Below are positions 1,603 through 15,105 of a stretch of 64,000 bases of DNA, one piece after another. How positions within the stretch are numbered: the stretch's first letter is position 1; each line of letters opens with the position of its first letter. Source of the stretch: a virus; IMG/VR virus record IMGVR_UViG_3300041411_000129, positions 1 through 64,000 of that record; one strand, 5' to 3'. The translations under genes and the position numbers were made by a program. The notes under the pieces were generated by a model. That model saw nothing but the letters and a program-made list of their open reading frames with translations. It made no database searches and was not told the origin of the DNA.

Positions 1603-1614
1603 GATTGGGCTCCT

Positions 1615-2298: not shown

Positions 2299-2309
2299 GG
2301 ACTACTCCA

Positions 2310-3278
2310 TTACGCATCAGGCGTTACGATGAAATCCGTGGCGTCAATACTGGCGCTGTCCCACGATCCACCGGCTGGGTTCTTGTGGAATACACCACCG
2401 CTGCCGTTATAACTGTACGAGCCGGATGGGCCTGAGAACGTCTTACCCACAACTTCGTCGGCGCCATTCTTGATCTTACTCGTACAAGTGACTGGGCCGG
2501 CGCCGTTAGAGCTCACGCCAACCACTACCTCGAGGGCAGTTACGACCGTTCCTGCTGGGAGTGTGACCTTCAGGCTAGCGGCGAGAGGACCTTTGGTAGT
2601 AGTGTTCGATGTAGCAATCTTGTCTGTAGGTATTGAGCCAGCTTCATAGACCGCATCTACCAATGCAGTACCACCAGGTGTGGTGGTCCAATCGGCACCA
2701 GTTGCAGCGTCAATGCTGATTGGTACTACCTGCTGAGGACCCTGTGGTCCTACGGGAAGTCCTTGGGCGGCGCCTTGGTCATCACAGATGTAGAAGTCGC
2801 GATAATCGTACCGACCATTCAAACTACCCTTGGCCTCAAGACCAAGCGTCATGCTACGCCCAGTGCCGGCAGCGGTGTTGGCGATCTTGACGCCGTTGAT
2901 CCAACGCTCAACTACACCCGTGGTAACGTCGTACGAGAACTCAAGATACACGGTGTTGCCGCTGACTGGAATCAACGTATCTAAGAGAACGTAGTTCCCG
3001 CCAATATAGACGAGACCTGCACCGCCTCTGGCATTGAGAATGATTCGGCAGCGATAGCCGAACCAGATCTTATTCACAGGAGCTACCAGATACGGGTCCA
3101 ATGGAATCGAAACGCGTTCACTACCACTGGCAGTGGCGTTACTTACGATCCAACCATTGACCAAAGTATTCTGTGCCGACAAGTCAGCGCCGCGCGTCAT
3201 CCCGTGAGTGGCGTAGTTAATCCACGACGTAACGCCCTGCGGCAAATGCTCGAAGCCGATAACTGCTCTAATTGCCAT
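2310..3278 (-). CDS. Lectin-like virion protein (ConA-like fold suspected)
   Basis: A 322-residue paralogue of the proteins at 493 and 3296. The N-terminal part contains 'VYLEFSYDVTTGVVERWING', typical of laminin-G/ConA-like beta sandwiches in which a strand, a turn and a W-x-N-G strand follow each other, and then 'GRYDYRDFYICDDQG'. A short Gly/Pro/Gln linker (near residue 178, 'LPVGPQGPQQVVPI') leads to a second beta domain that ends 'SASIDATDFIVTPDA'. Sequence identity among the three paralogues is highest around the R-D-x-Y-x-x-D-D segment and the linker. It probably acts on the particle surface, with glycan binding possible. No active-site residues can be named. Confidence 0.8.
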   Translation of the reverse strand: MAIRAVIGFEHLPQGVTSWINYATHGMTRGADLSAQNTLVNGWIVSNATASGSERVSIPLDPYLVAPVNKIWFGYRCRIILNARGGAGLVYIGGNYVLLDTLIPVSGNTVYLEFSYDVTTGVVERWINGVKIANTAAGTGRSMTLGLEAKGSLNGRYDYRDFYICDDQGAAQGLPVGPQGPQQVVPISIDAATGADWTTTPGGTALVDAVYEAGSIPTDKIATSNTTTKGPLAASLKVTLPAGTVVTALEVVVGVSSNGAGPVTCTSKIKNGADEVVGKTFSGPSGSYSYNGSGGVFHKNPAGGSWDSASIDATDFIVTPDA

Positions 3279-3295
3279 GATTATAAAACCTCTTA

Positions 3296-4342
3296 TCAGA
3301 CGACCGTATCAGGCGTCAGTTTGACCGCAGTGGCGTCGAGCTTAGCCAGAGACCAATCGGCACCATCTGGTGCTTTGGTATACAGCCCAACAGGAGATAC
3401 CGACGCAGCGCCAGTTGGTGAGCTGACGAACTTAGCTGCGAGAGTTGTCCCGCCTTGCGTTAGTTCGACCTTACTTGTAGATGCTGCATCACCAAGGCTA
3501 GCTCCGGAGATATCCAGCTTTACAGCTGCGATACGAAATCCAGCAGGGATATCGTGTTTAAGACTCGTATCGAGTGGGGTCTTATCGGCGGCTGATGTGA
3601 CTGCGTTTGCGGATGGGTAAGGTGCGTTCAGCGTATCCACGATCGTACCGCCACCGGCAGCGACCCAACCAGCACCAGAGGCAGCATCGACTTGAACTGG
3701 ATAGATCCGCTGCGATCCAATTGGTCCAGTCATCCCATCCCCGGCAACATCGTCTAAGACGTATATATCGCGGATAGCGTAACGTCCACCAGCGGACGTA
3801 CCCAGTCGGAAGGTTAGGCATCCATTACCAGCCACAAATGCAGCCTTACTACCAGCTGCCATAACCGGACCAGTGTAGTTGGCAATCGCTACACCGTTAA
3901 TCAATGTCGATGTAACCCCGCTTACAAAGTCATACGTATGTTCTACGTAATACTCAGTACCGACACCAGTCAACCAAGGAGCTCCGCCAGTACCCGCCAA
4001 GAACAAATAACACGCCACGTCATTAGGTGTGGTATCTGCTGTAAGATGACAGATAGAGTGTGCGCCGGTATACGCTGCCAGAGTCTTGATACGGTAACCG
4101 ATTGTCAGCTTGTTAGGGTTGTTTGGAACAAATCCTTTCAAGGAGATTGGTACAATCTGATCGAACCCGTTAGACATCCCCGAGATCCAACCATCTTGGT
4201 CAATAGCGCAGCGGGCAATGTTAGTGCCTTGAGCAGCGCCTGGAAGACCAGACAACGTCCACCAGTCAGGAAACGCCACCGTGGCAACGGTAGGGTTGGT
4301 GGTCTTTAAGGCAAGATCTGTGCCAAAGAATGCACGAAGCAT
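3296..4342 (-). CDS. Lectin-like virion protein (ConA-like fold suspected)
   Basis: A 348-residue protein, the third of the lectin-like paralogues. The diagnostic segments are 'YYVEHTYDFVSGVTSTLING' in the first half, 'GGRYAIRDIYVLDDVAG' around residue 185, the linker 'MTGPIGSQRIYPVQVDAASG', and a C-terminal beta domain ending 'KLDATAVKLTPDTVV'. The C-terminus closely parallels that of the neighbour at 2310 ('DATDFIVTPDA'), so these two are the nearest pair. It begins four bases after the end of the next upstream gene, which fits one operon. A role as a tail or head decoration protein is inferred from fold and context only. Confidence 0.8.
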   Translation of the reverse strand: MLRAFFGTDLALKTTNPTVATVAFPDWWTLSGLPGAAQGTNIARCAIDQDGWISGMSNGFDQIVPISLKGFVPNNPNKLTIGYRIKTLAAYTGAHSICHLTADTTPNDVACYLFLAGTGGAPWLTGVGTEYYVEHTYDFVSGVTSTLINGVAIANYTGPVMAAGSKAAFVAGNGCLTFRLGTSAGGRYAIRDIYVLDDVAGDGMTGPIGSQRIYPVQVDAASGAGWVAAGGGTIVDTLNAPYPSANAVTSAADKTPLDTSLKHDIPAGFRIAAVKLDISGASLGDAASTSKVELTQGGTTLAAKFVSSPTGAASVSPVGLYTKAPDGADWSLAKLDATAVKLTPDTVV

Positions 4343-4346
4343 GATG

Positions 4347-4718
4347 TTACTCCTCGCTGTCTGTGGTTTCAGCAGGCACTTCTACAACCGGATCATTCCA
4401 GCAGAGGTAGAAGCGGCCACAAGGCGCTACAGAGCGCGCTGGGAAGCTGATGCAGAGCGCGTACTTGAATATGCTGAAGGTGGGCAGGCTGTGTTTGTTG
4501 AGACCGTTAAACAAGACCTCAGCGCCTAACAGGGAGAACTCATTCGAGTCAGGCTGAGTGTTCCACAGACTACGTTCGGCCTCAGGGCCGTATGTCGACA
4601 GAGCTGTGGTGACGAGCCGTGCATTGATGATGTCCATCTCACCAAGCTGAATCTTTGCCAGCTGGTCACCTATTCCGGTGAAGTCTGTCCGAATCAGGTA
4701 ATTTGGCCAATCATTCAT
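4347..4718 (-). CDS. Stand-alone C-terminal half of the two-domain YxR family
   Basis: This 123-residue protein matches only the second half of the two-domain paralogues. It has the 'D..G.DFTGIGDQLAKIQ' opening, the 'WNTQPDSNEFSLLGAEVLFNGLN' core (compare 'WVNTP...NLSGATVLSNGLN' in the protein at 6197) and the end 'FYLCWNDPVVEV', equivalent to 'MYLHYNDPFD'. The gene immediately upstream (4740) has only the first half, so together they equal one full-length paralogue of about 290 residues. The start is supported by a GGGGGAA ribosome site 8-10 bases upstream. It is therefore translated separately and is not simply a frameshifted remnant. It carries a short acidic tail, EVPAETTDSEE, absent from most relatives. 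Confidence 0.8.
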   Translation of the reverse strand: MNDWPNYLIRTDFTGIGDQLAKIQLGEMDIINARLVTTALSTYGPEAERSLWNTQPDSNEFSLLGAEVLFNGLNKHSLPTFSIFKYALCISFPARSVAPCGRFYLCWNDPVVEVPAETTDSEE

Positions 4719-4739
4719 TTCTGAATTCCCCCAATGTAA

Positions 4740-5234
4740 TTAAAATGCCAGCAGAGTGTTGCCGTTGAATGCCGTGGCGATGTCAGGATAACCACCGAAC
4801 TTCAACGTAGCTGACCCTGTCCAACCGAGGTGTCCTTCAACAGCTTCGATCTGAACGTTTATTTTACCGTTTACGGTAAAGCTCGGATGATCCACAAGTT
4901 CCGCTACAGTGAATGGTACACGCAGATAAGCTAGGACTATCGGAATCCAAGTTGCCACTGAAGCAGCATCTGGACAGACACAGTTGGCGAGGTTAAAGTT
5001 TTCAAGCGGCTGCAATGGGAGGCGATCGTAGAAAATGGTTGTAAACCCAATCGTCTTGGTAGATGCTGGTGCTGAGTTCACTTGAATGGCTGTGTTCTTA
5101 CCATATTGGGTGATCTCATCAGCGGTTGCGGCGCGTGGCGTACCGAAGATAAGATCGGCTGCAACGAACGACAGACCGGAAGCCACGCTGACCATTGCGA
5201 CAAGGTCAGCCGTACTAGATACGAAAATAGTCAT
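4740..5234 (-). CDS. Stand-alone N-terminal half of the two-domain YxR family
   Basis: A 164-residue protein consisting of one YxR domain: 'ADLIFGTPRAAT', then 'NTAIQV', then the signature 'TIFYDRLPLQPL' (Y69-D-R71), then 'WIPIVLAYLRVPFTVAELVDHP' and 'GHLGWTGSATLKF'. It stops right after this last strand, where two-domain relatives continue through 'VTxLPGLNYP' into the second half. That second half is encoded by the next gene (4347). The simplest reading is a gene fission in which both products remain made and may reassociate. Function is unknown and a virion role is inferred from the operon. Confidence 0.8.
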   Translation of the reverse strand: MTIFVSSTADLVAMVSVASGLSFVAADLIFGTPRAATADEITQYGKNTAIQVNSAPASTKTIGFTTIFYDRLPLQPLENFNLANCVCPDAASVATWIPIVLAYLRVPFTVAELVDHPSFTVNGKINVQIEAVEGHLGWTGSATLKFGGYPDIATAFNGNTLLAF

Positions 5235-5245
5235 GGCGGACCCTG

Positions 5246-6142
5246 TTAAGTATATTGAAGAAGGCAGCGGCCAGTGAACCAGCTATCTGGGTTGGACTGG
5301 ATAACTACGACTGAGGTGTACTTAGTCGAGTCAACCTCAGGCACTGCGGCGTTTGGAAGCGTATATCGGAACCACTGGATGTTTTGAGTACCACCCGGTG
5401 TGTTGGCGTTCCCAATGTTCCATCCGGTTTGACCGCTATTCGCATTCAGCCAATCACAGATCGTTTGAATACCGGCGTTTGCACCACCAGTTGGATTGTA
5501 GGTCGTAGGGATGGCACTCAGCGTAGTTTTGATGGCTGTTGCATCCTGACTGAGGGTCATGAACTCACCGGTCGGTTTACGACCGACTGAGAAATCATTA
5601 CCGCCAGGATATAGCCGTCCGATCAGACCACGGTTAGCGTCAGTGATAACGTCCGTAATTGGACGCTTACCCAAAGTCCAGAGAATACTGAAGGTGCCTT
5701 TGTAACACAGGCAGGCAGCAATAGGTCCACGAGTAGCCGCTGAACCAGATGCGATGTTTTGGCTAGAGGCAACATCATCGACGGTGAGACTGATGCCGTA
5801 TCTTGCAGCGACCCAAGGAACCCACTGAGCCGGGAATGCGCTAGTGGTCGTGTAATAATTGTCCAGCTTCAGCGTGATGTTTCTGAACAATGCGGTCAGA
5901 TCGATACGACGATATTTAACCGTAACCTGACCAATACCGCCAGAAGCAGCCGTTGGTTTGACTACGATACTGGTATCGTTCTTGAACGGATCAGCGCCAT
6001 CGACAGCGATGGCTGTCGGTGTGCCGAAGGTGACAGAACCCAACGGAAAAACATCTTTGAATCCGGGGTTACTCTTCTCAATCAGATCGTAGATCATCTC
6101 CGATTGAGGTTTACGGTAATCTGTAGGAACCGCAGTAGCCAT
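5246..6142 (-). CDS. Two-domain YxR-family virion protein
   Basis: The start is placed at MATAVPTDYRKP, because GGGAG lies 8-9 bases upstream; a longer in-frame extension lacks such a site. The product has 298 residues. Domain A shows 'SVTFGTPTAIAVDG', 'TSIVVKPTA' and 'VKYRRIDLTALFRNITL' (Y77-R-R79), then 'YGISLTVDDVASSQ'. Domain B shows 'LYPGGNDFSVG' and a W-N-x-G region, and ends 'GRCLLQYT', a degenerate form of the family HYN ending. It is closest to the protein at 7087, which shares 'YRRxDxxxLFRxITLxxDxY' and 'FPGGNDFxxxxxPT'. The two form an alternating pattern with 6197 and 8061 and suggest duplication of a gene pair. Confidence 0.85.
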   Translation of the reverse strand: MATAVPTDYRKPQSEMIYDLIEKSNPGFKDVFPLGSVTFGTPTAIAVDGADPFKNDTSIVVKPTAASGGIGQVTVKYRRIDLTALFRNITLKLDNYYTTTSAFPAQWVPWVAARYGISLTVDDVASSQNIASGSAATRGPIAACLCYKGTFSILWTLGKRPITDVITDANRGLIGRLYPGGNDFSVGRKPTGEFMTLSQDATAIKTTLSAIPTTYNPTGGANAGIQTICDWLNANSGQTGWNIGNANTPGGTQNIQWFRYTLPNAAVPEVDSTKYTSVVVIQSNPDSWFTGRCLLQYT

Positions 6143-6196
6143 GATTAATCTCCCAATGGAAGTAGCAGACGGATTTCGCCATCCGTCTGCATCCAC

Positions 6197-7075
6197 TTAT
6201 GCCGCGTTCGGATCGAACGGATCGTTATAGTGGAGATACATGACACCGGCTGGCGTGAGTACAGTATCCGCCAGTTTCAACTCCATTACGTACTTGTACG
6301 CTGGGTTGGTTGGCAGAGATGCGGAGTTCAGACCGTTACTGAGAACAGTAGCGCCAGACAGGTTCCACGTAGTTGCACCCGGAGTGTTAACCCAGAGAGC
6401 CTTACCGGCGGAGACGTCGATTGCCTTGAACGCAGTGACGAGCTGATCGGCTTGAGTGCTGTCAATAACACCTGGAGCCATCGCCTGCACTTGAGTAAAG
6501 TACGAGGTGAAGTCATAGCCGTACATGTACAGTTGAGCGAAAGTATCGGTATCCAGCGTAGTCGGATAGTTGAGACCAGGCAGCGCTGTAACCTGAATCA
6601 ACTCATCGATTGGAGCGGAACCTTTAGTAACAACGATACTCAGATTGCCGATCCAGCCGACACTACCCGGTTTAGCCGAAAGTACGGCCGTCATGGTGTT
6701 ATCGCCGTTATCAACCAACGGAGCATCATTCAAGTCATCGGTCGTGAACTGAATACCAGTCCAATACTGAATCATCGGGAACAACGTATACACCGTGTCA
6801 GCTGTATACGCCGAAACCTTGAAGCCTGGAATGTTGGCGTCAATCAGATCATTCAATTTCAAACGATCGTAGGTCAGGACCTTAGTGCCCTGATAAGCAC
6901 CACCATCTTTGGCTGTTACACGCAGCGCGGTGTTGTGAGCGGTGACCTGACCTTGCCAAGTACCCTCTACAACTTGCGGCACGCCGAAGACGACGTCTGC
7001 CGCTGTGAACGCCGTCGAGTTGGCAGCATTGAGCGCTGCCAAGAAATCGTCGACAGACTTTGTCATGTAAGACAT
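6197..7075 (-). CDS. Two-domain YxR-family virion protein
   Basis: The start is set at MSYMTKSVDDFL, where GAGG lies nine bases upstream; the longer frame begins with an unrelated-looking W/R-rich stretch. The 292-residue product has domain A ('ADVVFGVPQVV', 'TKVLTYDRLKLNDLI' with Y69-D-R71, 'IQFTTDDLNDAPL', 'GSVGWIGNLSI'), the linker 'VTALPGLNYPTTL', and domain B ('YMYGYDFTSYF', 'LSGATVLSNGLNS', 'MYLHYNDPFDPNAA'). It is the clearest full-length representative, used here to define both halves. Neighbours on both sides are paralogues, with gaps of 10-55 bases. Confidence 0.85.
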   Translation of the reverse strand: MSYMTKSVDDFLAALNAANSTAFTAADVVFGVPQVVEGTWQGQVTAHNTALRVTAKDGGAYQGTKVLTYDRLKLNDLIDANIPGFKVSAYTADTVYTLFPMIQYWTGIQFTTDDLNDAPLVDNGDNTMTAVLSAKPGSVGWIGNLSIVVTKGSAPIDELIQVTALPGLNYPTTLDTDTFAQLYMYGYDFTSYFTQVQAMAPGVIDSTQADQLVTAFKAIDVSAGKALWVNTPGATTWNLSGATVLSNGLNSASLPTNPAYKYVMELKLADTVLTPAGVMYLHYNDPFDPNAA

Positions 7076-7086
7076 TGGTTCTATCC

Positions 7087-8055
7087 TCAGACGTTGTAGT
7101 GGATGTAGTGGTGACCAGCGCCACAACCCAGTGCAGTATCTTCAACAGGGACGGTGAGGATCAGTACACGGTTGTAGTACTTAGAGTTAGCCAAAGGCGC
7201 AGAATCTCGACCAGCTTGAGTACTCAGGTCAACTACGCGACCAGCCCAGGTCTGGTAGACATACGCTGGAGCACCTCTACCAGCATACGCCAGGCCTTTC
7301 CCGTACAGTCGATTCAGTTCATCGATGAACCGATTACAGAAGGCGACGAGTTCGTTACTTGCACCTTCCCAACTGCCAGGGTAGTTGTTCCACTTAGTCC
7401 CGGCCAAGATGAACGCAGACCAATCGATGGCGTAAGCCATACCGCTGACAATTGTCGGATGTCCTGGAGTCACGAAGTCGTTACCACCTGGGAACATACG
7501 GGCATTGAGATCAGTCACAGTGATCATCGTACTGAGATCCTGCGGAGCACCTTTCCACTTCAGTGCGAACTGGCCGGTGTAAGCAAGGCTCGTCGACTTG
7601 GTCTGTACGGTAACGGTTCTGGTGTAGAATCCATCTTCGATCGTAGTGCCGCGAGTGATGTTCTGATCGACCACATCGTCTGTAGTCAGGTTGATGCCGT
7701 ACTTCGCATTGATGATCGGAAGCAGGGCATACACACTGAACACGATGGCGTTCTGTCCTGCGGTAGAACCTTGGTTTACCGAATACCGATCAATCTGTAG
7801 CGTGATACTGCGGAACAGGACACCCATATCGCGGCGGCGATAGTTGACTTCTTTACGACCGATGAAGTCTTGACCGGCGATTGCACTCAAGGTGATCTTG
7901 GTGTTCATCGCCGAGTTGCCTGGAACCGTGGCTGGAGCAGGGACGCCGAGCAAGACGTTGGTCTTAGTCACCGGAATCCAGTTTTCCACGCCTTGGTTTG
8001 CCAAGTTGATGAGGTCATAAACCTCATCGATAGGCGGTTTACTGAAAATAGGCAT
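7087..8055 (-). CDS. Two-domain YxR-family virion protein
   Basis: A 322-residue protein with an AAGAGG ribosome site. Domain A includes 'TNVLLGVPAPAT', 'NTKITLSAIAGQDFIGRKEV', the signature 'NYRRRDMGVLFRSITLQIDRY' (Y72-R-R74) and 'YGINLTTDDVVDQNI'. Domain B begins 'VTDLNARMFPGGNDFVTPG' and ends 'GHHYIHYNV', a complete HYN ending. It is the longest of the two-domain members because of an insertion before the C-terminus ('KGLAYAGRGAPAYVYQTW'). It is paralogous to 5246 in detail. Probable structural protein of the particle; no enzymatic motif seen. Confidence 0.85.
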   Translation of the reverse strand: MPIFSKPPIDEVYDLINLANQGVENWIPVTKTNVLLGVPAPATVPGNSAMNTKITLSAIAGQDFIGRKEVNYRRRDMGVLFRSITLQIDRYSVNQGSTAGQNAIVFSVYALLPIINAKYGINLTTDDVVDQNITRGTTIEDGFYTRTVTVQTKSTSLAYTGQFALKWKGAPQDLSTMITVTDLNARMFPGGNDFVTPGHPTIVSGMAYAIDWSAFILAGTKWNNYPGSWEGASNELVAFCNRFIDELNRLYGKGLAYAGRGAPAYVYQTWAGRVVDLSTQAGRDSAPLANSKYYNRVLILTVPVEDTALGCGAGHHYIHYNV

Positions 8056-8060
8056 CTTGA

Positions 8061-8861
8061 TTAAGCCTCTTCGAGGATGTTGTAATGAAGATACATCGGC
8101 CCGATCATCTGGTCACTGTAGAAGCCTGCCTGAACAACCACTCGGTCAAACCTAGGGTTGCTGTCAGGGACCGCCGAGGTTGGATAGTCGGTAATGTAAC
8201 CTTCATTCCAGCCTGGGATGCCGAGATATGAGCAGGCGTTTTGAAGCGCCGCCCAATCCGTGTAACGCTGACCTGGGCTAGTCGGTTTGATTGCATCACG
8301 AAGACTGGTGAAGTCAACATCCCACGTAACCATCCGAGCAGACATCTTCGAGTTCACCACATCCGGATGATTACGGACTGGCAGAATCTTGATACCAACG
8401 ATGCTATCTAAGAAGGCTTTGGAGTGAGTGAGGTTGATTACAGCCGAACCGATGAAGCCACGGCTGTCAGGCTTAGCCGTCAGCACGAGTTCTTCAGACT
8501 CTCCGTTAGCCACCGTGGGAGGCGTGAACGGTTCGAAGTCATCAACGGTAAGGAAAAGACCGAACGCGCCGTTAATCAGCTTTACAACGCTTGCAGGAGT
8601 GAATTCCTCAAGACTGCGTACATCGGCAGCCTGAATAATGTCACCCAGCACCAAACGTTTGTAATAGATGTCGACTTCATTGTAGTAACCACGCCCCGGA
8701 ACCGACTTTACAGTCAGCTTGGTGTTAGCGGTTTCTGTAGCAACGACTTCGATATCTTGCAGACTAACGTTCATCTCAGTGAACGTCTTTGGCGGCACGT
8801 TGAGGACGTTGAGTTCCTCAATGATCTTACTGGTAGCAGAAGGAACAGTCTCAACAGCCAT
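8061..8861 (-). CDS. Two-domain YxR-family virion protein
   Basis: The product has 266 residues and starts MAVETVPSATSK behind an AAGAGGTG site. Domain A: 'NTKLTVKSVPGRGYYNEVDI', signature 'YYKRLVLGDIIQAAD' (Y67-K-R69), 'LFLTVDDFEPFTPP', 'DSRGFIGSAVINL'. Domain B: 'IKILPVRNHPDVV', 'VTWDVDFTSLRDA', 'WNEGYITDYPTSA' and the end 'MYLHYNILEEA'. Only five bases separate it from the next gene, so translation is probably coupled. It resembles 8873 and 9719 in length and in the W-x-x-x-F-T/S-x-L/Y segment of domain B. Confidence 0.85.
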   Translation of the reverse strand: MAVETVPSATSKIIEELNVLNVPPKTFTEMNVSLQDIEVVATETANTKLTVKSVPGRGYYNEVDIYYKRLVLGDIIQAADVRSLEEFTPASVVKLINGAFGLFLTVDDFEPFTPPTVANGESEELVLTAKPDSRGFIGSAVINLTHSKAFLDSIVGIKILPVRNHPDVVNSKMSARMVTWDVDFTSLRDAIKPTSPGQRYTDWAALQNACSYLGIPGWNEGYITDYPTSAVPDSNPRFDRVVVQAGFYSDQMIGPMYLHYNILEEA

Positions 8862-8872
8862 GACTACACCTC

Positions 8873-9706
8873 TTAATCCACAATCGGATCGTTAAAGTGG
8901 AGAACCAATTGACCAGACCACCCCAACGACATGGTGTCATCGAGATCAACGATGATCACATGGTCGTAGTCCTGATTGGAGACAGGCTCGCCAGACGTCG
9001 GGCCAGCGTAACTAATCGTTGCCCCATCCAGAGAGAAGCGGGAAGCTCCGACCAGTTGCCACGCATCGCCAGAGGCTGCCACAAGGGCATCTTTGATGAT
9101 ACCGAGATCAGCTGTACCAACAACGACGTTAATCAGAGTGGCGTAATACGGACTCATGTCACGCCAGTAGGAGTAACCCACCGAAGCGTACGGCTTGGTA
9201 ATCTGAGGTGATGGGTAGTTCAAGCCCGGCAGTTGCGTAACGGCAATCACGTCTTCTAGAGGCTGTGCCCCAAGTGTGACGTGGAAAGTAACTTCACCGA
9301 TCCAGCCGATACTGTCAGGTTCAGCAACGAGGATCACATCGCCAGCGCCGTCCACTAAAGTCAACGCATTGGAGACGATGTCATTCGCTTCAAAGCCGAT
9401 GCCGTGGCGCTTGTTCAGCAGAGTCACGAAGTCGTCAGTTGTCTGAATGTCATACGCCTTGATGTTCGGACTGATCAGGATCGGCAGATCCGCCAGATCA
9501 AGACGCTTATAGCGGATGGTCGTACTACCGTCGTACGGGCTCAGTGGATTGAGCGCAGTGACCAGCAGCGAAGTATTGGTGCCTGATGCATCCGGCGCTA
9601 CTGGAGTAGGCGTACCGAACGTATACTCGCCCTCAACCAGCTCGACGTTGTTTAACGTCTTGATTGCGCCGAGAATCTCATCAAGCGGTCTTTTATACAA
9701 AGCCAT
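8873..9706 (-). CDS. Two-domain YxR-family virion protein
   Basis: A 277-residue protein that starts MALYKRPLDEIL after an AAGAGG site. Domain A: 'GEYTFGTPTPVAPDA', 'NTSLLVTALNPLSPYDGS', 'IRYKRLDLADLPILISP' (Y66-K-R68), 'GIGFEANDIVSNAL', 'DSIGWIGEVTFHV'. The linker 'VTQLPGLNYPSPQ' is nearly the same as in 6197. Domain B contains 'SYWRDMSPYYATL', a W-Q-L-V-G-A-S segment and the end 'LVLHFNDPIVD'. The match to 6197 across linker and C-terminus makes these two one subgroup. Confidence 0.85.
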   Translation of the reverse strand: MALYKRPLDEILGAIKTLNNVELVEGEYTFGTPTPVAPDASGTNTSLLVTALNPLSPYDGSTTIRYKRLDLADLPILISPNIKAYDIQTTDDFVTLLNKRHGIGFEANDIVSNALTLVDGAGDVILVAEPDSIGWIGEVTFHVTLGAQPLEDVIAVTQLPGLNYPSPQITKPYASVGYSYWRDMSPYYATLINVVVGTADLGIIKDALVAASGDAWQLVGASRFSLDGATISYAGPTSGEPVSNQDYDHVIIVDLDDTMSLGWSGQLVLHFNDPIVD

Positions 9707-9718
9707 ATCGAAACCTCT

Positions 9719-10516
9719 TTATGACCGGTTGAAGTGAATATACGCGTCGCCCTTGTAGCCGTTGATGTCGATACCAGTCTGGATGCAGACGTTGGTGAAA
9801 TCTTTGTTGGCTTCGGGTACGTCTTTTGTCGAATACGATTTCACTGTCTGCGTCATGAACACAGGGATGTCTGGGAAGCCCATCTCGATGAACATCTTCT
9901 GGACAGCCGGCCAGTTGGTCCAACCGTACCAAGCAACACCAAGGATGTTGGAGTAGTACGAGAAGTCCAGACCCCACGTCGCCATGTCGAGGGAAGGTTT
10001 ACCCAAGTCAAGCGGATTATGGTGAGTCAGAACATCCAGCTCTTTGTTAGCAATCGCTACAGACAGCTGAGGACGAATACGAATGAACTGGATAACGAAT
10101 GAACCTTCGTAACCCAACGAGTTAGGGCTAGCCTTGATTACCAAGTTAGCTTGCTCGTTACCACCCAACCAATCGATCGGCTCGTTGACGATGTCGATAG
10201 GGAGGAAGTTGGTGCCGAGGCGTTTGTTCAGGATTGGCAGCAGACGATGAATGTTCGTCTGACCCAAGTCGTTAATAATCGGACGCACACCACCGAAGAT
10301 CTGATCCAGGTTAATACGGCGATAACCAAACCGCGCGTAACCTTCGTAGTCCTTGTTGTCGTACATCGTAACGGTCGGGAGTTCGATGGAACCATCTGCC
10401 AACGACTTCACGTTGCCATAGTAAAGACCACCTACTTCCAACGGTACACTCAAAGCGTTCTGTTGGTTGATGAGACCGATCAGCGCTTCTTCCGACGATC
10501 CCGGTAAAAGTAACAT
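9719..10516 (-). CDS. Two-domain YxR-family virion protein
   Basis: The 265-residue product opens MLLLPGSSEEALIGLINQQN behind a CAGGAG site. Domain A is diverged, with 'GGLYYGNVKSL' in place of the usual TFGTP, 'YEGYARFGYRRINLDQIFGG' (Y65-R-R67), 'LGTNFLPIDIVNEPI' and 'NSLGYEGSFVIQF'. Domain B: 'LDMATWGLDFSYYSNIL', 'YGWTNWPAVQKMF', and the end 'DAYIHFNRS'. A strong hairpin lies between it and the single-domain gene upstream (10624), so it may begin its own transcript or be expressed at a lower level by read-through. Confidence 0.85.
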   Translation of the reverse strand: MLLLPGSSEEALIGLINQQNALSVPLEVGGLYYGNVKSLADGSIELPTVTMYDNKDYEGYARFGYRRINLDQIFGGVRPIINDLGQTNIHRLLPILNKRLGTNFLPIDIVNEPIDWLGGNEQANLVIKASPNSLGYEGSFVIQFIRIRPQLSVAIANKELDVLTHHNPLDLGKPSLDMATWGLDFSYYSNILGVAWYGWTNWPAVQKMFIEMGFPDIPVFMTQTVKSYSTKDVPEANKDFTNVCIQTGIDINGYKGDAYIHFNRS

Positions 10517-10558
10517 AAGGCATCTCCTGGAGTCGAAGCTGACTTAAACGGTAAATAA

Positions 10559-10588
10559 GAGAGGACGAGGCCGAAACCCCGCCCTCTC
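10559..10588 (-). terminator. Putative minus-strand terminator or attenuator hairpin
   Basis: On the minus strand GAGAGGGCGGGG pairs with CCTCGTCCTCTC over 12 positions (two G-U pairs) around a six-base loop, followed by TTATTTACC. It lies in the 107-base gap between two genes of the same strand, so it could end or weaken transcription after 10624. The T-run is short, hence the moderate confidence. Confidence 0.5.
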
Positions 10589-10623
10589 AGATTTATTTGT
10601 ATTAAGACAGTGGTGAAGACCTA

Positions 10624-11145
10624 TTAAACCGGAACGTAGGTCAGACCGTTCAGATCAGTCACGGTCAGGTATTCAGCCAGGTCGATCTCGTCGGAACGGA
10701 GATGGAAGGTCAAGCTGCCGATATACGCCAGCGAGTCAGCCTTCGCCACGACTTGTACGTCGTGAGTTTCGTTCGGGATACCGCCAGTGAAGGTCGGCAG
10801 GTCGCCATCAACGAAGTCTTCCACGCCGAGGTTGATGCTCAGCAGTGCGTTCAGCTGAGGGATGATGTCGGCGATCTTGGTCGACTCACCCAGGCTGAAG
10901 GTTGCGTCCTTGCCGCTTGGCACGAGGATCGCGGTGTTCAGGTGCAGACGGTTGTACTTGAAGGTCTGGGAACCGGTGAAGCCCGAGCCAGCTTTGGCGG
11001 TCAGGGTCACGGAGGTGTTCAGCAGACCAGTGCTGTTTACGGTTGGCAGACCGATGTCGACAACGCCGTAGGTAATACCTTTGTTGTTGTCGGAGTTGAT
11101 AAGGTCAAGGACTACGACCTTGCTTGCTTTAGTCATATCGCTCAT
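10624..11145 (-). CDS. Single-domain YxR-family virion protein
   Basis: A 173-residue protein made of domain A only: 'GVVDIGLPTV', 'NTSVTLTAKAGSGFTGSQT', 'FKYNRLHLNTAI' (Y64-N65-R66), 'LSINLGVEDFVDGDLP', 'DSLAYIGSLTFHL'. It ends with 'LTVTDLNGLTYVPV', exactly the linker that leads into domain B in the longer paralogues. Its codons are enriched in C- and G-ending forms compared with its neighbours, which suggests high expression. A hairpin follows its stop codon. It is probably a major virion component of this cluster; that is an inference from codon use. Confidence 0.85.
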   Translation of the reverse strand: MSDMTKASKVVVLDLINSDNNKGITYGVVDIGLPTVNSTGLLNTSVTLTAKAGSGFTGSQTFKYNRLHLNTAILVPSGKDATFSLGESTKIADIIPQLNALLSINLGVEDFVDGDLPTFTGGIPNETHDVQVVAKADSLAYIGSLTFHLRSDEIDLAEYLTVTDLNGLTYVPV

Positions 11146-11216
11146 TACAGGTACTCTTCAGTAAGTAAGGACAAGTCGGCCTTGGCCAACCACATAGAAT
11201 TCTGCATGTTCATGGA

Positions 11217-11744
11217 TCAAACGACAGGCTCGTAGGTCAAGCCAGAGAGATCAGTAACAGGCAGATAAGCGCTCAGAGGAATCAGCTCTGGCTTCACCTC
11301 AAGGATCAATGTGTCGAGATAAACCATCGAGTCAAAGGTAACCTTGAGTTCGACGTTAGCCGACAGCACGGAACTTAGATCCGGCAGGGGTTTGTCGATG
11401 ATCTTGTTTGCCGAAAGATTGATGTTCAACCTTTCATTGATAGCAGGCAAGAGATCGGACAGATTCACTTCATCCGTGATCGTGAACGCTAGTGACGTCG
11501 TATCTGGATCGACGAAGTCTACTAACCTTACTCGATTGTAATAGAAGCTTTGACTACCCTCGTAGCCTCTTCCCGCGATGGCTGTACCAACCATCAGGGT
11601 ATTACGGTTTACCCCAGCTACAGGGGTAAAAACGCTCGGAGTGCCAAACGTCACTTGGCTAGACGTCAAGGTCCGGTTCTGGTTATCTTGACGAATGAGA
11701 TCGATAACGACGTCTATCTCACTCCGTGTGTAGTCAATGGCCAT
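11217..11744 (-). CDS. Single-domain YxR-family virion protein
   Basis: A 175-residue protein with domain A only: 'SQVTFGTPSVFTPVAG', 'GRGYEGSQSFYYNRVRLVDFV' (Y69-N-R71), 'LNINLSANKIIDKPLP', 'DSMVYLDTLILEV'. It ends 'LPVTDLSGLTYEPVV', the same linker end as 10624, so it stops at the domain boundary. It is the closest relative of 10624 in architecture and the two are adjacent, which points to tandem duplication. No other domain or motif is visible. Confidence 0.85.
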   Translation of the reverse strand: MAIDYTRSEIDVVIDLIRQDNQNRTLTSSQVTFGTPSVFTPVAGVNRNTLMVGTAIAGRGYEGSQSFYYNRVRLVDFVDPDTTSLAFTITDEVNLSDLLPAINERLNINLSANKIIDKPLPDLSSVLSANVELKVTFDSMVYLDTLILEVKPELIPLSAYLPVTDLSGLTYEPVV

Positions 11745-11787
11745 ACACGAGTTCTCGTTAAGGAGTCAGGAGGTCATAGAATTTCGG

Positions 11788-12327
11788 TCAGTTAATCAAC
11801 TGATCGTAAACTCCACCATCGGTCATTGGCTCGCCCCCAGGCGCTACAAGGCCGTTCAATACGTTGTTCGGGAATTGTGACGCTAGGGTGAGGACTCCGT
11901 TGCTTGCGTTGAGTACAAGCGTTCCTAGCCACACGAATGACCTATTTGTAACGGTGATGGTAACAACACCATTCACGTTGGTGTAATCTTTGATATCGTT
12001 CAGACTTAAAACAAAGTTGTATTTAAGTCTAAGGGCAGTCACCACGCTAGCTGGCGTGATCTCCCCCAGTACTTCGACACTGACAACTGGCTCGCCAATA
12101 TCGATGAATGCTTGCTGCATGTCCAAGCGGTTGTAGTAGTAGACGTAACTACCGGTGATCTGCTTACCACGAGCCGTGGCGCCTACCTTGGTGTTCTTTC
12201 CATCGAACTCGCCAGGCACCAATCCGGTGAAAGACAAATTCGACGTACTCAGCGTTACGCCGTATCCTTCTAGGATGGCCTGATTCGCTACCTGAATCAT
12301 CTCGGCCAGCATTTCCTCACCGGTCAT
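11788..12327 (-). CDS. Single-domain YxR-family virion protein, first gene of the minus block
   Basis: The product has 179 residues: 'SNLSFTGLVPGEFDG', 'NTKVGATARGKQITGS', signature 'YVYYYNRLDMQQAFI' (Y65-N-R67), 'YNFVLSLNDIKDYT', 'RSFVWLGTLVLNA'. The end 'FPNNVLNGLVAPGGEPM' corresponds to the linker but continues about a dozen residues further. It closely resembles the end of 29763 ('FSNNILDGLWPP'), a member in a distant cluster. As the first gene of the block it must lie just behind a minus-strand promoter in the 137-base divergent spacer. Confidence 0.85.
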   Translation of the reverse strand: MTGEEMLAEMIQVANQAILEGYGVTLSTSNLSFTGLVPGEFDGKNTKVGATARGKQITGSYVYYYNRLDMQQAFIDIGEPVVSVEVLGEITPASVVTALRLKYNFVLSLNDIKDYTNVNGVVTITVTNRSFVWLGTLVLNASNGVLTLASQFPNNVLNGLVAPGGEPMTDGGVYDQLIN

Positions 12328-12387
12328 AGTCGATACCTGTGCATAAATGGATTAACTGTACATCCTATTTGGATTGGAATGAAAAAG

Positions 12388-12402
12388 ATTACAGTCATAT
12401 AT
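12388..12402 (+). promoter_or_regulatory. Candidate phage promoter motif, copy 1 (ATTACAG type)
   Basis: ATTACAGTCATATAT lies 62 bases before the first start codon of the small-gene operon, in the divergent spacer. Similar 15-mers precede the genes at 16052, 18553 and 20952. TTGGAA 18 bases before TATATT also gives a weak sigma70-like reading, so the two explanations compete. Confidence 0.35.
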
Positions 12403-12448
12403 TGTCGGAGTACACATAACAACGAGATCCATTCTGGATACGTTGAAC

Positions 12449-12461
12449 GACCGAGGAGGTC
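12449..12461 (+). promoter_or_regulatory. Shine-Dalgarno stem-loop 1
   Basis: GACC-GAGGA-GGTC forms a 4-bp stem whose five-base loop holds the ribosome-binding GAGGA. It is preceded by AACG, and the start codon follows three bases later. First of six such elements. Confidence 0.6.
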
Positions 12462-12464
12462 ACC

Positions 12465-12803
12465 ATGTCCACAGTTTTCAATGTAAAAGCAGCTTACGAG
12501 GCTGTAACCAACATCCCTGAGATGATTAAATGGTTACAGGACGTTCAAGCTGTGATGCTCGAGGAGATCGATAACTGGACCTATACCGGGTCTGGCGATT
12601 TCCGTGCCAAGATCGCTGCCCTCGATGAGTGGACAGCCAAGCACCTCTCGCAGATGGCTAACGTCAGCGAGTTGTGGATCACGCTTGATCATGATCAAGC
12701 GATGGCAAAGCTCAACGACTTCAGTGATAGGCTAGATGCCCATCGCGCAAGTATCGTTGAGTTCGGGCAGAAGGTGGAGGAACTGAAGGCCGATCTTGGC
12801 TAA
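12465..12803 (+). CDS. Small helical protein, paralogue of 12866
   Basis: A 112-residue, mostly alpha-helical, soluble protein and the first gene of the small-gene operon. It begins with 'FNVKAAYEAV..IPEMIKWL..VQ', which matches 'FNAKEAYELV..AGMIDWVLSVS' in the following gene, and shares the aromatic 'LDEWTAKHLSQM' region ('EEWDALAKEYTDWTM'). The pair therefore arose by duplication. No signal peptide, membrane segment or catalytic motif is visible. Position at the head of a strong-looking operon and small size are typical of phage accessory proteins that act on host functions, but nothing in the sequence says which. Confidence 0.75.
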   Translation: MSTVFNVKAAYEAVTNIPEMIKWLQDVQAVMLEEIDNWTYTGSGDFRAKIAALDEWTAKHLSQMANVSELWITLDHDQAMAKLNDFSDRLDAHRASIVEFGQKVEELKADLG

Positions 12804-12819
12804 GGTTTCCCACTTAACA

Positions 12820-12842
12820 ACGTCATCCATTTCGGGTGACGT
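12820..12842 (+). other. Intercistronic hairpin
   Basis: ACGTCATCC and GGGTGACGT pair over nine positions (one G-U) around ATTTC, between two small genes. There is no T-run, so it is more likely an mRNA-processing or stability element than a terminator. Confidence 0.4.
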
Positions 12843-12849
12843 CACCAAC

Positions 12850-12862
12850 GACCGTGGAGGTC
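12850..12862 (+). promoter_or_regulatory. Shine-Dalgarno stem-loop 2
   Basis: GACC-GTGGA-GGTC, preceded by AACG, with the start codon three bases downstream. The loop keeps GGA. Confidence 0.6.
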
Positions 12863-12865
12863 CAG

Positions 12866-13114
12866 ATGTCAGAGTTCAATGCGAAAGAAGCTTACGAGTT
12901 AGTTGTAGACAAAGCTGGCATGATTGATTGGGTGCTTTCAGTTAGCGATCAGCTTTCTAAAGAATCCGATCGTCGAGCTGCTGCTATCTCGATGGGGCGG
13001 CATGCTACCTTGATGTCTAACGAGGAGTGGGATGCGCTGGCTAAAGAGTACACCGATTGGACCATGCAGGAACAATCTCTGACCGCCTTCTGCTTCTCTT
13101 TGTTCAAACCCTAG
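12866..13114 (+). CDS. Small helical protein, paralogue of 12465
   Basis: The product has 82 residues. The frame is open ten codons further upstream, but the start MSEFNAKEAYEL is chosen because it follows stem-loop 2 at the same distance as in the sister genes, and because it lines up with 'MSTVFNVKAAYE' of the neighbour. It is shorter than the neighbour because it lacks about 30 C-terminal residues. It ends 'AFCFSLFKP'. No motif for function. A 20-base perfect hairpin follows its stop codon. Confidence 0.75.
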   Translation: MSEFNAKEAYELVVDKAGMIDWVLSVSDQLSKESDRRAAAISMGRHATLMSNEEWDALAKEYTDWTMQEQSLTAFCFSLFKP

Positions 13115-13122
13115 ATACAAAA

Positions 13123-13142
13123 GGCCGGCAATACTGCCGGCC
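13123..13142 (+). other. Intercistronic hairpin
   Basis: GGCCGGCA-ATAC-TGCCGGCC is a perfect 8-bp GC-rich stem, followed by TATCCC rather than T's. It may attenuate transcription or stop 3' exonucleases between the first and second pair of small genes. Confidence 0.5.
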
Positions 13143-13151
13143 TATCCCAAC

Positions 13152-13164
13152 GACTGAGGAAGTC
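13152..13164 (+). promoter_or_regulatory. Shine-Dalgarno stem-loop 3
   Basis: GACT-GAGGA-AGTC. The last stem pair is T-A here instead of C-G in copies 1 and 2, a compensatory change. AACG precedes it and the start codon follows five bases later. Confidence 0.6.
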
Positions 13165-13169
13165 CGACC

Positions 13170-13499
13170 ATGATGAACATCCCGACATTCTTGAAGCTGT
13201 GCGCAGTAGTTGCAACCATTGGCGCCGCAGCTGGTGCTACCGTAAGCTATCTGGAACGTAAAGAGAATCTCCGGAAGGCCGAAGTTATCAAACGCAACAT
13301 CTCCGATCTGGTACGTCTCTGCGATGACATCGTTGCACTGTACGGTCAGAAATCTCTGAGCGCCCAACAGTTGGCAAACCTGATGGAGATCCGTCGTCGT
13401 AACGATAGCAAGTTCGCCAACATGCGGTACGATGAGATCCTGGTGATTCAAAGCCAGATCGAAGTTATCTACAACGTTCTTAACTCCAGCCGTCCCTAA
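13170..13499 (+). CDS. Small membrane-anchored protein, paralogue of 13518
   Basis: The product has 109 residues. An N-terminal hydrophobic segment (about residues 5-24, 'FLKLCAVVATIGAAAGATVS') is followed by a helical cytosolic or periplasmic part. It pairs with the next gene: 'IATIGAAAGATVSYLERKE' versus 'LTTIAATVGGLIYYVSKKT', 'SLSAQQLANLMEIRRRNDSKFANMRYDE' (quoted for its key residues S, L, L, E, R, F, Y) versus 'ALSVKQMGELEQLRQDYKVNF'. The segment looks like a signal anchor, not a cleaved signal. Function unknown. Confidence 0.75.
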   Translation: MMNIPTFLKLCAVVATIGAAAGATVSYLERKENLRKAEVIKRNISDLVRLCDDIVALYGQKSLSAQQLANLMEIRRRNDSKFANMRYDEILVIQSQIEVIYNVLNSSRP

Positions 13500-13500
13500 C

Positions 13501-13513
13501 GTCCGAGGAGGAC
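13501..13513 (+). promoter_or_regulatory. Shine-Dalgarno stem-loop 4
   Basis: GTCC-GAGGA-GGAC. The second and third stem positions differ from the other copies and both sides change together (GACC/GGTC to GTCC/GGAC). AACG overlaps the preceding stop region and the start codon follows four bases later. Confidence 0.65.
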
Positions 13514-13517
13514 TATC

Positions 13518-13856
13518 ATGATTTCCGATGCAATCAAAATCGCAGCAGGCTTGACAACAATCGCAGCGACTGTCGGTGGGTTGATTTATTACGTCAGTAA
13601 GAAAACCGCCGAGAACGACCTCCTGCTTATCAAACAGAAGGTTGGCGCTAACATCGACTTCATCGATGCTTACGTCGCCCTGATGGGTAGCGATGCTCTG
13701 TCGGTGAAACAGATGGGTGAGTTGGAGCAGCTGCGTCAAGACTACAAGGTCAACTTCGCCACCTGTACGTACAACGAGATGGTTATCCTGTTGGCTCAAT
13801 CCAACGGCATCTACATGACCGTCCGTGACGCTGCGAAAGCGCATCAGAAGAAATGA
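13518..13856 (+). CDS. Small membrane-anchored protein, paralogue of 13170
   Basis: The product has 112 residues, with a hydrophobic N-terminal segment (about residues 6-25, 'IKIAAGLTTIAATVGGLIYY') and a Lys-rich helical tail that ends 'AAKAHQKK'. It shares order and spacing of motifs with the upstream gene ('DIVALYGQKSLSAQQL' versus 'DAYVALMGSDALSVKQM'). The stop codon overlaps the next start as ATGA, so translation is coupled. It could be a small inner-membrane protein that targets host envelope or defence functions; that is a guess from size and context. Confidence 0.75.
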   Translation: MISDAIKIAAGLTTIAATVGGLIYYVSKKTAENDLLLIKQKVGANIDFIDAYVALMGSDALSVKQMGELEQLRQDYKVNFATCTYNEMVILLAQSNGIYMTVRDAAKAHQKK

Positions 13857-14314
13857 TCGGTAAAGATCCGGTTGAACTGTTTCTTACTGAGTTAGCAGAG
13901 AGCGTTCCAAACGCTCTCGTTGTTTTTACTCAAGGTAATTGTTTCAAGCTGTACTTGATACTGCGTAGGGTTTACCCGCAAGCAAAGCCGTACTACGCGA
14001 TGTGTCCAGGACATGTTTACACGGAGATCGACGGAAGCTACTACGACATCTGGGGTAAAGTCTCCAGCATCGAATTGAAGCGAATGCAGAACTACCTGAT
14101 CTACCTCCCTGAAGAACCGCGGATATTCAAAGAAGCATTCCGCTGGCAATACCAACCCGAACTCGAAACGACTGAGGAAGTCTCATGCAAAGCATCGAAC
14201 AGCAAATCAAAGATGATGTCACTAAAGTCATTGGTGACAAGAACACTCTCGCGGCTATCGACGAAGCTATCGAAAGCACTGACTACGGCAAGAAGTTCCA
14301 CGCCAACTGGATGA
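13853..14314 (+). CDS. Conserved phage hypothetical with a C-F-K-L / H-V-Y-T / Y-Y-D-I core
   Basis: The product has 153 residues. The core 'GNCFKLYLILRRVYPQAKPYY' followed by 'GHVYTEIDGSYYDIWGKV' is a pattern I recognise from small hypothetical proteins of many tailed phages ('NCFKLWxILRxxYPxAxxYY...HVxTxIDGxYYDIxG'). Cys and His in these positions recall papain- or NlpC-like folds, but this is not established here. The last 43 residues, Ser/Lys-rich and of low complexity, are encoded in the 130 bases that overlap the next gene in another frame. That tail may be a recent extension caused by loss of a stop codon. Confidence 0.65.
   Translation: MIGKDPVELFLTELAESVPNALVVFTQGNCFKLYLILRRVYPQAKPYYAMCPGHVYTEIDGSYYDIWGKVSSIELKRMQNYLIYLPEEPRIFKEAFRWQYQPELETTEEVSCKASNSKSKMMSLKSLVTRTLSRLSTKLSKALTTARSSTPTG
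14170..14182 (+). promoter_or_regulatory. Shine-Dalgarno stem-loop 5, inside an overlapping gene
   Basis: GACT-GAGGA-AGTC, identical to copy 3, preceded by AACG, with the start codon two bases after it. It lies inside the coding sequence of 13853, so the element is kept even where another frame constrains it. Confidence 0.6.
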
Positions 14315-14712
14315 TCGCCCGCGGCTTCTACAACCTCGGCATGAACATCGACTGGACGATTGCCGTTGAGCGTGCCAACGACGTTGTCGCGAAAGATCCG
14401 GATGACCTGGGCTGCAAGATGGCATTCATCGACGCCGACGGCATCGAGACTCTCATCATCCCAGGTAAACACGGCGGCGCTGTCATGCGTGCTAATAAGA
14501 CCGTAGAACTCTACGGTAAGTACAAGTCCTGCAATCTTGACGTGTGGATGGCTCTTGATGGCATCAGCCTTACACACACCTTGCTGGACCTCATGACGCA
14601 AGGTCTTCCATTCATGGGCCTTCTGCCAATCCTCGATTCCATTATCGAGAAGAAAGCAGACCGTGATGAGATGACCCGCCTCCACGCCAAATTCAGAAGC
14701 TACCTCGCTTAA
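14185..14712 (+). CDS. Small acidic soluble protein, unknown
   Basis: A 175-residue protein starting MQSIEQQIKDDVTKV. Predicted mixed alpha/beta. Notable segments are 'DYGKKFHANWMIARGFYNLG' and 'DPDDLGCKMAFIDADGIETL', then a C-terminal helical part with 'MTQGLPFMGLLPILDSI'. No motif recognised. Its first 130 bases overlap the tail of 13853; codon use on this strand is better in this frame (many C-ending codons), so this is the main product of the overlap. Confidence 0.7.
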   Translation: MQSIEQQIKDDVTKVIGDKNTLAAIDEAIESTDYGKKFHANWMIARGFYNLGMNIDWTIAVERANDVVAKDPDDLGCKMAFIDADGIETLIIPGKHGGAVMRANKTVELYGKYKSCNLDVWMALDGISLTHTLLDLMTQGLPFMGLLPILDSIIEKKADRDEMTRLHAKFRSYLA

Positions 14713-14722
14713 GGAAACAATC

Positions 14723-15076
14723 ATGTCACTCGTATCTACAACCATCATGGGTAATGACCTGGTGCTCGGTTCTCATGACGACCCACCAGTCGGTCACCGG
14801 GTTGGTTCGGTTCCGGTGAAGTTCGATAACGGTAAGACCGAGTACATCAGCGTATTCGGTTCTATCCACATCTACACCGACTCCAGAGAGCGTGATCACT
14901 TCGAATCAGAACTGCGTAAGTTCTGCCAAGATCCTGATACCGTTCAGAAGGTTCTCGGTGTCGCAGTCCAGAGCGCCCACGCTAAACGCTTCAACCCCTC
15001 ACGCTCCCAAACCGATCGCGGCTATTATCGCGCCGGTCGTAACGGGAATGTGGAATCACACCAACGCAGCATGTAA
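14723..15076 (+). CDS. Small soluble protein, unknown
   Basis: The product has 117 residues, with start MSLVSTTIMGND after an AAGGAAAC site (no stem-loop here). It looks beta-rich in the first 60 residues ('GHRVGSVPVKFDNGKTEYIS', 'GSIHIYTDS'). A basic, Ser/Arg-rich tail ('AHAKRFNPSRSQTDRGYYRA') might bind nucleic acid. It sits ten bases after its upstream neighbour. Not recognised. Confidence 0.65.
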   Translation: MSLVSTTIMGNDLVLGSHDDPPVGHRVGSVPVKFDNGKTEYISVFGSIHIYTDSRERDHFESELRKFCQDPDTVQKVLGVAVQSAHAKRFNPSRSQTDRGYYRAGRNGNVESHQRSM

Positions 15077-15092
15077 CACCATTATACCTAAC

Positions 15093-15105
15093 GACCGCGG
15101 AGGTC
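15093..15105 (+). promoter_or_regulatory. Shine-Dalgarno stem-loop 6
   Basis: GACC-GCGGA-GGTC, preceded by AACG, with the start codon four bases later. Loop variant GCGGA keeps GGA. Confidence 0.6.

Follow-up and report, generated by a model that had tools for sequence, protein, structure and literature searches.

Short repeated sequences at ribosome binding sites have been described in phages since 2011, the closest example to the one analyzed here being the start-associated sequences (SAS) of cluster K mycobacteriophages. SAS are 13 bases long, lie at the ribosome binding site 3-9 nt before start codons that are mostly ATG, and are present in 11-19 copies per genome, in a single orientation and only at non-structural genes; their Shine-Dalgarno (SD) core is located between complementary outer arms (GGG-ATAGGAG-CCC), although they were defined in 2011 as non-palindromic despite these symmetric outer parts, and their function is unknown (PMC3203893). 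A repeat similar to SAS has been found in cluster EF Microbacterium phages (PMC7302621), and an extended element (ESAS) carrying putative promoters is located upstream of about half of the SAS (PMC11373665). Here we analyze a mini-hairpin that holds the GGA of the SD sequence in its loop, ahead of six genes in the first 64 kb of the 253,921-base uncultivated phage record IMGVR_UViG_3300041411_000129 (this whole stretch of 64,000 nucleotides is referred to as the window). As in SAS, the element is about 13 nt long, it is located at the ribosome binding site with a most frequent spacer of 3 nt, and the starts that follow are mostly ATG. Comparison of its copies, within the record and in related phages, indicates that RNA pairing at the SD sequence is under selection while the letters of the stem vary.

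Judging from its sequence, the phage that contains the window (G000) is a phiKZ-like jumbo phage of 254 kb, with proteins matching phiKZ-type families (major head protein, replicative helicase and virion structural proteins). The nearest named relative is Pseudomonas phage pPa_SNUABM_DT01 (MW735835; DT01 in what follows), with 34.5% identity over a structural protein and 38% over the major head protein, and no relative of the window locus at the DNA level was found among named phages. In uncultivated relatives from IMG/VR, identity of the major head protein is 98-100% for G016 and G022, 97% for G002 and G005, 75% for G019 and G004, 65% for G001 and 61% for G023. Gene starts in the compared genomes are those given by a simple, purpose-made caller.

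The element consists of a 4-bp stem and a GNGGA loop, is preceded by A(A/T)C and lies 2-9 nt ahead of the start codon. The copies in the window are the following, all on the + strand:

12449..12461, + strand, SD hairpin GACC-GAGGA-GGTC, before gene 12465; identical in G022
12850..12862, + strand, SD hairpin GACC-GTGGA-GGTC, before gene 12866
13152..13164, + strand, SD hairpin GACT-GAGGA-AGTC, before gene 13170; retained by the orthologue in G002
13501..13513, + strand, SD hairpin GTCC-GAGGA-GGAC, before gene 13518; GACC/GGTC in the G002 and G005 orthologue, a compensatory double change
14170..14182, + strand, SD hairpin GACT-GAGGA-AGTC, before gene 14185 and within the open reading frame (ORF) 13853-14314; kept in G002 and G005
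15093..15105, + strand, SD hairpin GACC-GCGGA-GGTC, before gene 15110; ACCC/GGGT in the G023 orthologue, with two compensated pairs

These are the six hairpins of a preliminary description of the window, all found at the positions given there, but the set is larger than was claimed, since a stem scan of the whole record yielded 21 copies, only on the + strand and each directly ahead of an ORF. That description was also right in that the copy at 14170 is intact inside another gene (ORF 13853-14314 matches phrog_4814 at 1e-20), and in that no hairpin precedes the genes at 13853, 14723, 15628 and 15779. Among the 21 copies, 20 have the GNGGA loop, while one, at 103628, has the hexaloop GTAGGA; the stems are GACC/GGTC, GTCC/GGAC, GACT/AGTC, GCCC/GGGC and GGCT/AGTC, the last with one G-U pair. 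The pattern AACGNNNGNGGANNNC was found six times in the window against 0.67 expected, a number reached in none of 100 shuffles, and 14 times on the forward strand of the entire 253,921-base record, with no match on the reverse strand. Only one of the 246 minus-strand genes of G000, G002, G001 and G023 has an SD hairpin, and the 5'-3' polarity is fixed. This strand bias and polarity, together with the spacing of 2-9 nt to the start codon, indicate that the element acts in translation, not as a DNA site. A search of the window against Rfam gave no match above the gathering score. A bacterial origin was rejected, given that 257 Gb of bacterial genomes contained 43 single hits, which is about the number estimated by chance, and none in multiple copies.

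All 20 five-base-loop copies of the record are fully paired, with a covariation value of 0.45 versus 0.13 in shuffled sets, and none of 500 shuffles reached 0.45. In a broader collection of 63 distinct copies, which had been selected for pairing, there are eight stem types, three of the four pairs vary and 100% are paired (covariation 0.41, versus 0.12 shuffled). The unbiased test is that of orthologous leaders, located via protein homology only and not via pairing. Between G000 and G002, 10 of 15 leaders have the same stem, five are compensated and none is half-changed; with the more distant G023, four out of four are compensated, again with none half-changed. Examples are the leader at record position 193267, where GCCC/GGGC corresponds to GGCC/GGCC and ACCC/GGGT, and that at 88724, with GACC/GGTC versus TCCC/GGGA. 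A few rows of this comparison without hairpin correspond to start codons misassigned by the script or to probable paralogues. In 2.9 million viral contigs, the compensated forms GACC/GGTC and GTCC/GGAC were found in 27 and 26 stretches, and the half-changed variants in 0 and 6, respectively. The number of predicted genes with an SD hairpin was 22 versus 6.2 with shuffled leaders in G000, 20 versus 5.0 in G002, 17 versus 4.3 in G001 and 27 versus 7.5 in G023. The initial proposal that the covarying stems reflect a selected RNA structure is thus borne out by the compensatory changes in relatives and by covariation above that of the shuffles. The two checks suggested with it, loss of pairing in relatives and a shuffled control, point the same way: pairing is kept by compensatory changes, and the number of hairpins in shuffled leaders is about one third of that observed.

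Some orthologues that lack the hairpin show a plain SD sequence, as is the case for members of a family of about 42 aa in G001 and G000. Gene 16052 of the window (48 aa) has a plain AAGGAG, while its relatives in G019, G004 and G023 are led by hairpins, constituting a natural switch between both types of site. Similar hairpins were also observed in other phages. Single-copy GTCC-GNGGA-GGAC hairpins lie ahead of genes, some apparently structural, in unrelated phages (L186-L207), a context in which the compensated form greatly exceeds the half-changed ones. The 19-kb contig L098 (IMGVR_UViG_3300008120_002880), from a GC-rich and apparently unrelated phage, has AAC-GACC-AAGGA-GGTC-AACATG repeatedly at genes on both strands, with the same hairpin architecture and nearly no stem variation. 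Four small, apparently unrelated phage contigs (L033, L035, L038 and L043) present several SD hairpins with the compensated stems TGCC/GGCA, GACC/GGTC and AGCC/GGCT, and another one (L026) combines GACC/GGTC with GGTC/GACC.

The genes led by the hairpins in the window and the motif that precedes them are:

12384..12405, + strand, promoter-like motif AAAGATTACAGTCATATATTGT, located 65 nt ahead of the first hairpin
12465..12803, + strand, hairpin-led gene, 112 aa, without family match
12866..13114, + strand, hairpin-led gene, 82 aa
13170..13499, + strand, hairpin-led gene, 109 aa, hydrophobic N-terminus, paralogue of 13518
13518..13856, + strand, hairpin-led gene, 112 aa, hydrophobic N-terminus
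14185..14712, + strand, hairpin-led gene, 175 aa
15110..15628, + strand, hairpin-led gene, 172 aa, with the broadest conservation of the set

Hairpin-led genes are small, with median sizes of 119-170 aa versus 165-181 aa for all genes, and gave no convincing match in family scans. For 16 of the 20 tested, homologues are either absent from the other compared genomes or limited to the near relative G002, and DT01 has no homologue of any of the 20. Many of their products have a hydrophobic N-terminus, and several of the genes are paralogues. In four related genomes, many clusters present the promoter-like motif ATTACAGTCAYACATTGT 41-69 nt ahead of the first hairpin; besides that at 12384-12405, it is found at record positions 88656, 103582, 179444, 192816, 232876, 233600 and 244051, and strong hits are on the + strand only. 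For + strand genes, the association between having a hairpin and being located within 1.6 kb downstream of the motif gave odds ratios of 14 in G023, 63 in G002 and 7 in G001, whereas the figure for G000 is partly circular, because the motif was seeded in that genome. The suggestion of a small-gene regulon made in the preliminary description is likewise supported. Phage-specific AT-rich motifs are known at early operons of jumbo phages that carry their own RNA polymerase (PMC7598289). On this basis, and since the hairpin-led genes are small, accessory and just downstream of a common promoter-like motif, they probably belong to an early class. One of 36 scanned proteins restricted to the clade matched Pfam Arc at 1.4e-22; sequence fit assigns this match to 181918-182310 of the record, just downstream of a promoter-like motif at 181855, which would make it a probable Arc-like ribbon-helix-helix protein and a possible regulator of the same promoter class.

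DT01 is a cultured phage that infects P. aeruginosa and has about a dozen SD-hairpin sites. It also has a promoter-like motif of its own, TTTTTCARCRATACATGATA, which was not seeded from hairpins and is present in around 17 copies (e.g. at 42274, 103716, 121313, 251844 and 255569), many of them followed by SD hairpins. Seven of the 14 genes starting 20-130 nt downstream of the motif have an SD hairpin (binomial p 5e-10), and the linkage of hairpins to its 1.6-kb neighbourhood is significant (Fisher p 3e-7). The hairpins include GTTC-TTAGGA-GAAC, ATGC-TAAGGA-GCAT, CATC-CTGGA-GATG and AGTC-GTCGGA-GACT, and the annotated start codons agree in the eight cases checked. A strict covariance model gave a negative and misleading result in DT01, the variant form being revealed by a looser scan guided by TTTTTCARCRATACATGATA. 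The genome-wide excess is modest, with 17 SD hairpins versus 8.8 after shuffling (shuffle maximum 17), and there was no excess in phiKZ (10 versus 11.8) or in Burkholderia phage FLC9 (7 versus 7.5). The constant features between the clade of the window phage and DT01 are the GGA at the 3' side of the loop, the G that follows it in the arm in nearly all copies, and the pairing. Apart from the hairpins, an array of about 15 apparently paralogous proteins sharing similar N-termini (..IxxLINxxN..), encoded at 493-12327 of the window (minus strand) and 249288-253861 of the record, is conserved within the clade and was not found in DT01.

With respect to the presentation of the SD sequence, the GGA is in the loop, as had been proposed, but the core AGGAGG spans from the loop into the 3' arm, with the exception of GACT/AGTC copies, so that the SD is only partly, about half, displayed. 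Nor is this arrangement the reverse of known SD elements, as had been stated, given that RsmA/CsrA sites and SAS repeats already have GGA in the loop. The computed folding energies of the hairpins range between -1.9 and -6.6 kcal/mol, while pairing of the same stretch with the anti-SD ranges between -6.7 and -13, the stem always being the weaker of the two; hence, the ribosome would be able to open the hairpin. Local folding of 66-nt leaders gave the mini-hairpin as the minimum in four of six cases, and longer structures may compete with it. When stem position 4 is U-A, as in GACT stems, where the SD is weakened in the arm, the loop reads AGGA in 8 of 8 copies, versus 33 of 55 in the others (p=0.04), which suggests that SD strength itself is under selection.

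Our preferred reading, still tentative and somewhat short of probable, is that the hairpin is metastable, presents the GGA to the ribosome as a toehold and melts once the ribosome docks. It is favoured because the ribosome could open the hairpin and because the AGGA loop compensates in GACT stems, and the fact that only the GGA, the following G and the pairing persist across clades gives it further support. The hairpin would hold the SD in a fixed local fold, away from other structures, and the 3' end of 16S rRNA would nucleate on the GGA, which lies at the 3' side of the loop; the anti-SD would then invade the 3' arm and the stem would melt, putting the start codon, 2-9 nt downstream, into the P site. 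The outcome might be a compact start site that does not depend on its context, for small genes with frequent gain, loss or relocation. There are several points that do not sit easily with this proposal. The geometry in the clade of the window phage is stricter than an SD toehold needs: among start-linked 4-bp NNGGA hairpins, the first loop base is G in 70 of 84 (22 of 27 in G000, 19 of 25 in G023, 20 of 22 in G002 and 9 of 10 in G001), compared with 1 of 11 in DT01, and this G is no requirement of the SD as such; the loop is confined to GNGGA or GTAGGA, and 61 of 66 copies have an A three nucleotides before the stem. This could mean that there is a dedicated binding protein, although a cross-loop G.A contact would also explain the G. 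In addition, late genes lack the hairpin, and a cis-acting booster should serve them too.

A protein could also act as a clamp on this metastable hairpin. The best surviving alternative, which we regard as rather unlikely, is that the hairpin constitutes the operator of a phage-encoded RNA-binding protein, which would clamp or open a stem that by itself is too weak to block ribosomes, switching translation of early genes off or on, in the way MS2 coat protein and T4 RegA act at their initiation regions. The strict geometry in the clade of the window phage, with a stem of 4 bp, a loop of GNGGA or GTAGGA and A(A/T)C as flank, and the many dispersed copies on one gene class would be expected for such an operator, and GNGGA fits the GNR(N)A formula of pentaloops such as that of lambda boxB. 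However, DT01 keeps the architecture with different, heterogeneous loops, which argues against a sequence-specific phage protein, and all four Watson-Crick pair types are found at stem position 2, so that the stem would not be read by sequence there. Besides, no RNA-binding family was found among the 36 clade-restricted proteins or the 20 hairpin-led ones, most of these proteins being unclassified; the domains identified in the former were limited to Arc-like, GNAT, AAA and ribonucleotide reductase domains and others of unknown function. No homologue of RegA or RegB was matched in the phage, in searches that were weak tests, since their own controls also gave no signal.

Exploitation of the site as that of a host early-gene repressor of the CsrA/RsmA type, or titration of such a protein by the many copies, seems improbable to us. 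These proteins bind GGA in hairpin loops and at sites overlapping the ribosome binding site, and RsmN binds, at about 0.5 uM, a hairpin whose five-base loop exposes GGA (PMC3791407). All copies of our element have GGA in a hairpin loop overlapping the SD, and P. aeruginosa, the host of DT01, has RsmA and RsmN. Nevertheless, the ANGGAN motif is never found in the window phage, where the position two bases before GGA is occupied by G in five-base loops and by T in the hexaloop, and GGA ends the loop. A CsrA encoded by the phage was discarded, as there was no match among its proteins. Furthermore, SAS, which are similar hairpins, occur in phages of mycobacteria, bacteria that are not known to have CsrA.

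A role in mRNA processing or protection, either as an endoribonuclease site by which early SDs are removed late in infection or as a shield against such an enzyme, is quite improbable. T4 RegB cuts GGAG, a target present in SDs of early genes, and the promoter linkage of the hairpins suggests an early class, but GACT copies read GGAA instead, and RegB had no match, though in a search whose control gave no signal. Finally, chance or mere sequence conservation, through inherited copies of a ribosome binding site or a DNA palindrome for a DNA-binding protein, is hardly credible: several hairpin-led genes are paralogous and GACC/GGTC accounts for more than half of the copies, but the shuffles and the orthologous leaders, in which double changes are compensatory and no stem is broken, rule out chance or plain SD conservation, and the linkage to strand and start codon rules out a DNA operator.

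A wider proposal, possible though doubtful at this point, is that the same device has arisen several times in phages unrelated to each other, in the form of a metastable SD-toehold mini-hairpin for the 30S subunit that would mark an early accessory regulon, with SAS as its sequence-frozen version. Were this the case, it would amount to a widespread type of translation initiation signal that had gone unrecognised, and not to a peculiarity of a single group of phages. Separately, should the hairpin act in cis, it would constitute a compact, context-proof ribosome binding site with practical use. DT01, being cultured and having about a dozen sites, makes it directly testable whether the hairpin helps initiation, gates it or binds a regulator.

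In comparison with described systems, the element, with its GGA in the loop of a short hairpin, resembles CsrA/RsmA hairpins such as those of hcnA and RsmZ (PMC3791407), which overlap the SD in some mRNAs, but differs from them in the loop, GNGGA rather than ANGGAN, and in that GGA lies directly on the 3' arm. The loop of 20 of the 21 copies is like the lambda boxB pentaloop GNR(N)A; boxB, however, serves in antitermination and has a conserved stem, and it is no SD element. If the hairpin-led genes are indeed early, the element would be reminiscent of T4 RegA and RegB, which exert post-transcriptional control at the SDs of numerous early genes in a large phage, although the T4 sites are not uniform mini-hairpins. 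As in SAS, the copies in the window phage (21) are on the + strand only and at small accessory genes. The promoter-like motif that lies 41-69 nt ahead of the first hairpin in many clusters recalls ESAS in its arrangement, with another sequence. The SAS consensus GGGATAGGAGCCC or GGGAAAGGACCCC is not found in the element, whose stems are GACC, GTCC, GACT, GCCC and others with a GNGGA loop, and the host phylum and phage lineage are different. In TM4 and Pixie, the copies of SAS hardly differ from one another and show no covariation, so that the structure of SAS cannot be tested in this way and has stayed unproven, while here stem letters change and pairing is kept, providing a structural handle on start-site repeats of this type. 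The closest known kind in architecture is thus SAS, and on this comparison the element is SAS-like in its working, but not a member by sequence.

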